Assembly: GCF_900188035.1 (NCBI RefSeq)
Contig: NZ_FZNN01000009.1
Location: 1 to 64,000 of the forward strand
Source of the DNA: Puniceibacterium sediminis
Lineage (GTDB): Bacteria > Pseudomonadota > Alphaproteobacteria > Rhodobacterales > Rhodobacteraceae
Reading direction: 5' to 3'
Length of the DNA stretch: 64,000 nt
Both the position numbers and the translations under genes were made by a program. Position 1 is the stretch's first letter. Each line of letters begins with the position of its first letter. Positions 4,305 through 13,316 of the stretch are shown piece by piece. A model generated the notes under the pieces. The model had not been told where the DNA came from. It did not search any database and saw only the letters and a list, made by a program, of their open reading frames with translations.

Positions 4305-5032
4305 TGTCGCAACTTCTTGAAGTCACAAGCCTTACCGCTGGGTACGACGACGGCCCAGCTATTCTGGACGGCGCGCATCTCACAATCGAACCCGGCAAAG
4401 TGCATTGCATCATCGGGCCTAACGGGGCCGGTAAATCCACCCTGCTCAAGGCCATTTGCGGAATGTTGAAGATCCGCCAGGGCGACGTGAAATTCAAAGG
4501 TGAAAGCCTGAAGGGTCTTCGACCCGATCAGATATTGCGCAAGGGCATCTGCTTTGTACCGCAGGAACGGGCCTTGTTCCCCAAGATGACTGTCCGCGAA
4601 AACCTGCGAATGGGCGGGTATTCTCTGGCGGACAAAAGTGGTCTGGAACGCGCGATCGACGAGATCGAAGAACGTTTCCCGATCCTGAGGGAACGCCGCG
4701 ACCAGCACGCCGGTACCATGTCCGGGGGGCAGCAGCAAACACTGGCCATGGCCCGCACGCTGATCATCAGGCCCGAAATCGTCATGCTTGACGAGCCGTC
4801 TCTGGGTCTGGCCCCCAAGATCGTCCACGAGATGTTCGGCATCATGAAGATGATGGCATCCGAGGGCATCACGATCCTGCTGGTAGAGCAGAATGCGCTG
4901 ATGGGATTGAAGAATTCGGACTGGGGCGTCGTGCTGGACCTTGGCAAGACCCTGTTTGAGGGGCCCGCCCCCGAGGTTCTTGCAGATCCGCGCATCCAGG
5001 AACTTTATCTCGGCGGCAAAAAAGCCGCCTGA
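4304..5032 (+). CDS. LivF-like ABC transporter ATP-binding protein
   Basis: 242 residues. Walker A GPNGAGKS (about 38-45), signature TMSGGQQQTLAMAR (about 137) and Walker B IVMLDEPSLGLAPKIV are intact; this DEPSLGLAP form is characteristic of LivF. It is the second ATPase of the Liv-type importer and overlaps the LivG-like gene by one base, so the two are made in equal amounts. Confidence 0.92.
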   Translation: MSQLLEVTSLTAGYDDGPAILDGAHLTIEPGKVHCIIGPNGAGKSTLLKAICGMLKIRQGDVKFKGESLKGLRPDQILRKGICFVPQERALFPKMTVRENLRMGGYSLADKSGLERAIDEIEERFPILRERRDQHAGTMSGGQQQTLAMARTLIIRPEIVMLDEPSLGLAPKIVHEMFGIMKMMASEGITILLVEQNALMGLKNSDWGVVLDLGKTLFEGPAPEVLADPRIQELYLGGKKAA

Positions 5033-11765: not shown

Positions 11766-11906
11766 GGGACACGGATGTGAACATCAAATAGACGTGGCTT
11801 TGAAACTGGCGCTCTGTCGTGCTGGCTCCGGCTCGATGTCCAGCGCGCGGGGCTTCCCGTTTTCTGCACTGAGGCGCACCAAGTTCACCGCCCGCAGGAG
11901 GGAGGG

Positions 11907-12115
11907 TAATCCCCCCTAAAATTAGTGGTGTTCAAAAGTAGAATTTTCTCGGCAAGATGTCTGAGGAGATTTACGATGAAGAACGGACGATTTAGCGACG
12001 CGCAGATCCTTGCGATCCTACGCCAGCCAGAGGGCGGTGTGCCGGTGGCTGAGCTGTGCCGCGAGCACGGCCTGAGCCCTGCGTGCTTCTACATCTATGG
12101 ATGTCTCTCCCATTG
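11907..12115 (+). pseudogene. IS3-family orfA, truncated
   Basis: An IS3-group left-end-like sequence (TCCCCCCTAAAATTAGTGG, 11911-11929) precedes an ATG at 11976 whose product starts MKNGRFSDAQILAILRQ and continues GVPVAELCREHGLSPACFY, the helix-turn-helix of orfA. After FY the KWRAKYG block is missing and the frame shifts to GMDVSPIAR (near 12091-12117), after which similarity stops. The rest of the element, including its DDE orfB, is not present next to it. Confidence 0.65.
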
Positions 12116-12401
12116 CAAGATTTTCGCTGATCTGTTCCGCCGCCAAGCCCCAGGTTGCAAACATCTATCCGGCGTCACCGGTTGATGGTGCGCCCAAATG
12201 GGAATTCCGCGTGGTGAGCCTCAACGAATGGTCGGCCTCATCGGGCCATTATAAAAGTCAGATTCCTCACACACCGGAGGTTGCCGGTCGGTCCATTTCT
12301 TTGGTCGTCTTGCAATCCTTGTTGCGCGCTCAGGCTCGGGCGCGGGACTCCTCGTTTCTGTTGAACATAACCCAGATGATCCGGGCGTTCTTGTTGGCCA
12401 C

Positions 12402-12436
12402 GTCACGCTGCAAGCGTGCCTTCGTCACGACGATGG
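12402..12436 (+). repeat. 35-base REP-like palindromic repeat, copy A
   Basis: Begins GTCACGCTGCAAGCGTGCC and ends ACGACGATGG. It matches copy B (12640-12674, opposite strand) at 31 of 35 positions. CACGCT-GCA-AGCGTG forms a hairpin. It adds codons (TKARLQRD) inside the conserved IVV/VANKNARI block of the IS110 remnant. Confidence 0.55.
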
Positions 12437-12511
12437 CGCGGTTCATGCCACGTCGTTCGCGGAGGTTGTTGACCCATTGACTGAAGGGGTCTGTCTTTCG
12501 TTGCGCGACAC

Positions 12512-12537
12512 GGACCACGGACCACGGACCACGGACC
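12512..12537 (+). repeat. 7-base tandem repeat (GGACCAC)n
   Basis: Three complete copies of GGACCAC and a partial fourth (GGACC). It lies inside the IS110 remnant, where the reading frame changes, and is probably a slippage product. Confidence 0.8.
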
Positions 12538-12639
12538 GGCCACCGTGGATAAGCAGGGTTCGCAGATGCCTGTCCCCGCGCTTGCTGATCCCCATGAGCA
12601 GCCTTTTGTCGCCGCTGGAATGCTGTCGCGGGACCAGCC

Positions 12640-12674
12640 CCATCGTCGTGCCAAAGGCACGCCTCCAGCGTGAC
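12640..12674 (-). repeat. 35-base REP-like palindromic repeat, copy B
   Basis: Read on the minus strand it begins GTCACGCTGGAGGCGTGCC and ends ACGACGATGG. CGTGCC-TTT-GGCACG is a perfect 6-base hairpin. It places SRWRRAFGTTM where IS110 proteins have a short WL segment (HLAA...GLVPRQ), keeping the frame. Confidence 0.55.
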
Positions 12675-12764
12675 GCCGCCAGATGCCGACCGTTCTTGAA
12701 CTCCCGACCGTCGCCCACTGCGGCAACAACGGCGGTTACAGCAACAATGCTATCCCGGTGCTAA

Positions 12765-12830
12765 GTGTCGGCGTTGCGGATTATAGAGGCCATTGATGTA
12801 TTCGATGATCGCTACCTCAGCTTGTCTGCG
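12765..12830 (-). pseudogene. IS3-family OrfB C-terminal fragment
   Basis: The minus strand reads RRQAEVAIIEYINGLYNPQRR, the typical end of IS3-group OrfB (EYI-x-x-x-YNPxRRH). Only about 20 codons survive, between the IS110 remnant and the DUF1028 remnant. Confidence 0.55.
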
Positions 12831-12868
12831 GGTATCACAAGCTTTGTGCAACAGAGTCGCGTAGCGCT

Positions 12869-13316
12869 GTAATCGATCCTGAGATTGATCGGCGGCTGGC
12901 TTGGTGAGAGCATCAGAATGGCTGCCGATATCACCCCGCGCTTGTCGCTGCCAGCGAATACACCGGCTTCGAGCGCACTCACCAAACGACTGGACATCGA
13001 CCTCTGGCTGCCAAGGAACCCTGCGGGGCAGGCCTCAATGACACTTTCGTCTGTCAGCATATTGTCACCGACGACACAGTCCGTTGTGATGATCTGCGAT
13101 GTAATCGGAACATTGCCATCCCCGGTAAATGCCGCGCGTCGCGACAGTTGCTGGCCCTCGGCCGCAACAGGCGCGGGGCGTCTTGCCTTGCGAGGCGGGC
13201 AGGCCCACCAGGGCGTCACCGCGCAAGACCCAGCCACCGACGCAAAGATTGCCCGTGGCCGCCGCCCCGCCGAAGATACCGCTTACCGGGTCGCGGACCA
13301 GAATAGGGAAGGTCAT
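12869..13316 (-). pseudogene. DUF1028-family gene, decayed
   Basis: On the minus strand the product begins MTFPILVRDPVSGIFGGA, then VGGWVLRGDALVGLPASQG, as DUF1028 (Ntn-hydrolase-like) proteins do. It then jumps frame to RRAAFTGDGNVPITSQ, VGDNMLTDESVIEA and ALEAGVFAGSDKRG, ending LRIDY. The two parts are in different frames, and roughly 50-60 codons of the middle are missing, so an internal deletion with a frameshift has destroyed the gene. DUF1028 genes are commonly linked to dipeptide-type ABC transporters, and this one is divergent from an RpiR regulator and such a transporter. The GTG/ATG-type start at 13316 lies 80 bases from the RpiR start. Confidence 0.6.

Follow-up and report, generated by a model that had tools for sequence, protein, structure and literature searches.

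The DNA analysed here is a 64,000-nucleotide stretch of Puniceibacterium sediminis (contig NZ_FZNN01000009.1, positions 1 to 64,000; hereafter the window), in which the remnant of an IS110-family transposase gene carries two inverted copies of a 32-bp palindrome, CGTCACGCnnnnnGCGTGCCnnnGGCACGACG, referred to below as E (Table 1). A paralogue of this remnant on C31, which matches the Pfam profile Transposase_20 (2.5e-19), aligned as a query with positions 12333–12539 and 12524–12739 of the window. The nearest annotated intact IS110 found among plasmids, from Tritonibacter scottomollicae, is without both segments, which identifies them as insertions. Relative to this intact gene, the net gains of +27 bp and +24 bp correspond to 9 and 8 codons, both in frame and open, in agreement with the original prediction that the inserts add codons without a stop and with its suggestion that an intact IS110 would lack them. 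The same prediction had described two 35-mers, inverted to each other and identical at 31 of 35 positions. This relationship was confirmed and the palindrome is real, but the length was revised to 32 bp, as each 35-mer was missing the first base of E and had gained four flanking bases (ATGG) through a coincidental match.

Table 1 Features at the E-bearing locus of the window
Feature	Position	Strand	Details
E copy 1	12401..12432	(+)	MNRAIV^ANKNAR block of IS110 transposase; 8 bp replaced, net +24
E copy 2	12644..12675	(-)	Ala-Trp of HLAAWMGL, IS110 transposase; 5 bp (CATGG) replaced, net +27
IS110-family transposase remnant	12333..12739	(-)	Host of both E copies
Repeated unit	11905..12736		IS3-like orfA start (named by eye) and IS110 remnant with both E copies
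CACGGAC 7-bp tandem array	12509..12537		4.1 copies, inside IS110 remnant
Truncated DUF1028-family gene	12812..13237	(-)	PF06267, profile positions 79–187 of 193; adjoins IS remnant

Both inserts are present in three related IS110 remnants of the source genome (C47, C31 and C16) and not just in the window, indicating that both are older than the copying of that remnant. The window copies would represent two separate insertions of E into an IS110, the remnant of which was presumably copied within the genome afterwards. The repeated unit (11905–12736) shares 88.9% identity with the C31 stretch, and its portion 11905–12724 shares 92.3% identity with the C16 stretch. Three instances of the IS3-like orfA start fused to the IS110 remnant exist in the genome; they share their left end, and their right ends differ. 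The CACGGAC array of the window copy is 14 bp longer than those of the C31 and C16 copies, which shifts the frame.

A scan for CACGCNNNNNGCGTGCCTTYGGCACGACG with one genome per species returned at least 115 stretches, 80 of them with names and 35 more used for sequence only. Among the matches listed, 79 of the 80 named loci bear alphaproteobacterial names, a class that we presume for some of them, and many of the 80 belong to Acetobacteraceae; the sole other named locus in this set is a Burkholderiaceae MAG, whose IS best matches Rhodobacterales plasmids. At least 135 distinct copies from these stretches define the borders of E as CGTCACGC.....GCGTGCC...GGCACGACG, including one (L061 at 2106) that may be a chance match. 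With up to three mismatches, 98 matches were obtained in 608,698 bp against none for the reversed pattern, and the control reached 3 at five mismatches; since these loci had been chosen for holding the pattern, this count describes the sharpness of the borders rather than significance and is not an independent test. The genome search proposed in the original prediction gave 12 matching places in the source genome (general 32-mer, ≤3 mismatches) and none with the reversed control. A 33-mer consensus derived from the source genome matched 6 of 393 other genomes of the same family, and the general pattern with at most one mismatch matched 8 of 149 same-family genomes including the source, with no match for the reversed pattern in either case. 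The seven other genomes of the latter set hold one copy each, showing that E is sparse in the family of the source. The occurrence of E is not due to chance.

E is interpretable as a pair of 17-nt hairpins with a two-base overlap, CGTC-ACGCC-nnn-GGCGT on the left and CGTC-GTGCC-nnn-GGCAC on the right, with CGTC at each outer foot. The element begins with CGTC at positions 1–4 and ends with the inverse, GACG, at positions 29–32, and is therefore tagged at both ends. The stems are 5–6 bp long and start with ACGCC or GTGCC, the loops are of 3 nt, and there is no tail. Pair 9–13 of the first hairpin, which the search pattern left free, is Watson–Crick in 0.895 of 57 distinct sequences compared with 0.712 after shuffling (0 of 500), by a statistic that ignores the kinship of the sequences. 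In some variants the changes in the three arms are linked, as at C40:85899 in the source genome. The thermodynamic optimum of the consensus is one long hairpin (z −3.1); its diagnostic pairs 10–23 and 11–22 exhibited no covariation. For the window copies, the folding advantage over shuffled sequences is only a moderate one (z −1.0 to −1.8), and the Rfam covariance models gave no match at an E-value of ≤1 in nine loci with E.

Twenty insertions were compared with E-free relatives in which both flanks could be placed. Their hosts, named from annotated relatives, are IS110 (three sites), IS1380 (two), IS3, IS630, IS5 and IS21 istA/istB (six). Insertion of E takes place in both orientations, as an exact 32-bp unit, with the loss of 5 bp of target in 8 insertions, 7 bp in 10 and 8–9 bp in 2, and a 6-bp replacement was seen in none of the 20. 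None exhibited the target-site duplication known for IS or MITEs, the target being lost instead. Same-site insertions are counted separately in these figures; collapsed to distinct sites, there are 7 at 5 bp, 7 at 7 bp and 2 at 8–9 bp, with one IS21 site in both the 5-bp and 7-bp classes. In 18 of 20 insertions the last base of the replaced target is G, and in 16 of 20 its first base is C in one relative or more; E itself likewise starts with C and finishes with G. Some flank anchors are weak, down to 19–21 of 36 bases (right side of L044 and L084), and copy 2 of L111 has lost 9 bp, or 8 bp if a 1-nt gap beside E is allowed. The C31 copies of the window insertions were aligned but not counted as events, and the C16 copies were left out. 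Also outside the 20 are L060 (masked bases and one flank lost), L099 and L125, together with L137 and two of the three L122 copies, which have no usable empty site (L137 looks like a 5-bp replacement by eye). Extra anchor rows of low identity were set aside for L098, L115, L089 and L122 copy 2.

Hairpin tips were considered as the target of E, which is unproven: arms of at least 6 bp were found at 7.4% of the 135 copies, a small excess over the 3.1% after permutation (maximum 6.8% in 200 permutations). The intergenic copy of L064 splits a palindrome with 10-bp arms, and some other intergenic copies split palindromes too. Two measures were applied to one small set of 14 coding sites: contiguous stems showed no enrichment (combined p 0.49), and local folding energy showed a mild one (p 0.005).

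The reading frame was examined in the same 20 insertions. The frame is preserved at net gains of +27 and +24 and lost at +25. In-frame insertion, taken as characteristic of the element in the original prediction, is not supported as a property of E, as 10 of the 20 are +25 bp frameshifts and a stop arises within the in-frame IS3 insertion of L067. The 9–10 insertions that are in frame, against one third expected (P 0.19–0.09, a count that includes repeated sites and has IS genes as hosts), led us to reject selection for frame as an explanation. Five of the six frames of the consensus are open, and an open insert is therefore to be expected. The two open, in-frame copies of the window need no special explanation, which suggests that selection for frame is not needed to account for 'in-frame' palindromes in dead transposases.

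Judged by eye from their flanks, nine of the 12 places in the source genome are in IS genes, comprising six in the three IS110 copies, one (C66) in istB and two within an IS21 unit on C40, and three look intergenic. In 11 other same-family genomes with E, placed by flanks and not by annotation, four copies lie in IS genes (two IS630 and two IS3) and seven in apparent intergenic palindromes. Within the annotated subset of the 135 copies, every assignable intragenic copy is in an IS gene. IS usually occupy a few percent of a genome; against this fraction the IS share of E copies looks high, and survival in harmless places would explain part of it. Three copies each lie within 0.5–1 kb at L111, L122 and L171, with one IS21 unit per set by eye, and two viral contigs carry E between genes (L206 around 4560–4591 and L207 around 1489–1520).

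Several of these loci have features of their own. The viral copy of L206 is located within a terminator-like palindrome. L171 and L172, on contig C40 of the source genome, represent an IS21-like stretch with three E variants, in one of which all three arms have changed in a coordinated way. At L101, an IS1380 transposase contains two inverted copies (1135 and 1417) that are 282 bp apart, with a frame open over 515 aa, and this pair resembles the IS110 pair of the window. In L038, L054, L121 and other Acetobacteraceae loci, E is found in mosaic intergenic arrays with another short hairpin module, GCCAAG...CTGAGGGC.

The nearest published elements are the CGTC-tagged REPs (Di Nocera et al. 2013, PMC3733652). 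In the portion of that survey considered here, they have one unpaired CGTC tag, stems of 8–9 bp with AT in the first positions, loops of 4–5 nt, a CCA tail and no associated tyrosine transposase; they occur mostly in Alphaproteobacteria, are missing in Acetobacteraceae, and include RPE-4 and RPE-6 of Rickettsia and dRS3 of Neisseria. One explanation is that E belongs to the classical CGTC-tagged REPs or Rickettsia palindromic elements, and that the RAYT-like Y1 transposase responsible for moving it has since been lost or comes from another source. The same portion of the survey (PMC3733652) reports for CGTC REPs the CGTC at the hairpin foot, the mostly alphaproteobacterial loci, intergenic and sometimes intragenic copies, two insertions within one gene and copies inside larger palindromes. 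However, E does not fit the definition of families 1–4 given there, with its shorter stems starting ACGCC or GTGCC, its 3-nt loops and the absence of a CCA tail, and it also differs in being tagged at both ends and in having many loci in Acetobacteraceae. Its assignable intragenic copies lie in IS genes, and a 5- or 7-bp target replacement was not met in that part of the survey. The Y1 profile PF01797 was the sole enzyme profile searched, in 15 E-bearing genomes with the L084 locus outside the search. It matched at an E-value of ≤0.001 in three of them (G402, G403 and G407), which would be consistent with a RAYT-like mover, but not in the other 12. The latter include the source genome, so that the REP-type transposase anticipated in the original prediction had no match there or in 11 of the 14 other genomes, and no mobilising enzyme for E was found by this search. 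In showing no evident transposase, E resembles the CGTC-tagged REPs. We therefore consider a classical REP with a Y1 mover to be an unlikely identity for E. The proposed likeness to REP and Rickettsia elements holds in that E is a dispersed palindrome that enters coding sequence and its nearest class includes RPE-4 and RPE-6, whereas the supposed in-frame habit is not supported. Our best reading is that E is nearest to the published CGTC-tagged REPs, yet lies outside their stem, loop and tail definition, and represents a REP-like miniature element of a new type.

Like REPINs, E consists of two inverted REP-like halves that form one mobile hairpin unit, but REPINs, in the portion of their description considered here (Bertels and Rainey 2011, PMC3116915), are accompanied by RAYT transposases and have their two REPs separated by a spacer, whereas the halves of E overlap in 32 bp and 12 of the 15 E-bearing genomes searched gave no Y1 match. 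E differs from GTAG REPs in its CGTC tag. The small dispersed repeats of Nostoc, said to have been described by Elhai and co-workers in 2008, are reportedly 21–27 nt long, mobile, conserved in fold and located inside other repeats; E is similarly small, mobile and folded, but its sequence differs and the Nostoc repeats are cyanobacterial. RPE-1 of Rickettsia is a longer palindrome that lies in frame in functional genes. On a partial description of RPE-1, both are palindromes inside coding sequence, and E differs in being in frame in 9–10 of 20 insertions and in having IS genes as hosts. Fragments of E had no match in a literature text search, topic searches of the literature found no paper on E, and the part of a 2025 REP survey (PMC12306157) considered here does not mention it.

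Several IS sites carry E in more than one locus. These are an IS3 site (L067, L186 and, by eye, L137), an IstB site (L115, L148 and C66 of the source genome), a site at the IS110 N-terminus (L044 and L049), an IS630 site (L098 and L060) and an IS21 istA-istB site (L089, with 7 bp lost, and L111, with 5 bp lost). One pair from each group was compared with two E-free relatives per test, and in all five pairs one or both of the E-bearing copies lie nearer to an E-free copy than to each other (bootstrap 1.0), the IS630 test being based on a single flank and the IS3 test largely so. Since target bases are lost upon insertion, the E-free copies are not simple revertants. By these sequence comparisons, it is well supported that the same IS sites were hit independently more than once. 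Alternatively, E may have spread among IS copies by recombination, through gene conversion from E-bearing copies, which would explain the shared sites and the mostly identical deletion lengths; the three IS3 copies, moreover, have G beside E where both E-free relatives have T. Against this, in IS110 and IstB the flanks beside E agree with the respective lineage, and the deletions differ at the IS21 site. Opposite orientations are also seen at what seems to be the same Ala-Trp site, between the window copy at 12644 and that of L125, which has no aligned empty site. Taken together, gene conversion appears quite improbable as the source of the shared sites. That the segments are native to these transposases, or alignment artefacts, is hardly credible: three remnants of the source genome do carry both, but E-free relatives keep other bases in the place of E, and the same 32-mer is found across six IS families and in intergenic DNA.

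We regard it as reasonably probable that E is a non-autonomous mobile palindrome of a new REP/REPIN-like type, moved in trans by a putative non-Y1 enzyme that swaps out a few target bases. E inserts as a 32-bp unit in exchange for 5 or 7 bp (rarely 8–9), mostly a stretch beginning with C and ending with G. The enzyme acting in trans would be other than a Y1 tyrosine transposase and, by analogy with REPINs, E is probably mobilised as a folded single strand. Copies may survive where they do little harm, that is, in intergenic DNA and IS genes. A bolder and unlikely version is that an uncharacterised enzyme operates by strict replacement, in which 32 bp enter and precisely 5 or 7 bp, for the most part bounded by C and G, are removed, and that transposon genes are its favoured targets. 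On this view, E would act either as a tiny parasite of transposons or as a silencer of them on the host side, disrupting the same conserved motifs again and again across many IS families.

The part of the 2013 survey considered here (PMC3733652) does not settle by what mechanism CGTC-type palindromes move or whether they are still moving. The sharply defined empty and filled sites of E, its 5/7-bp signature and its recurrent target sites make the mechanism of such palindromes testable, and E provides an example of very small elements entering larger mobile elements.
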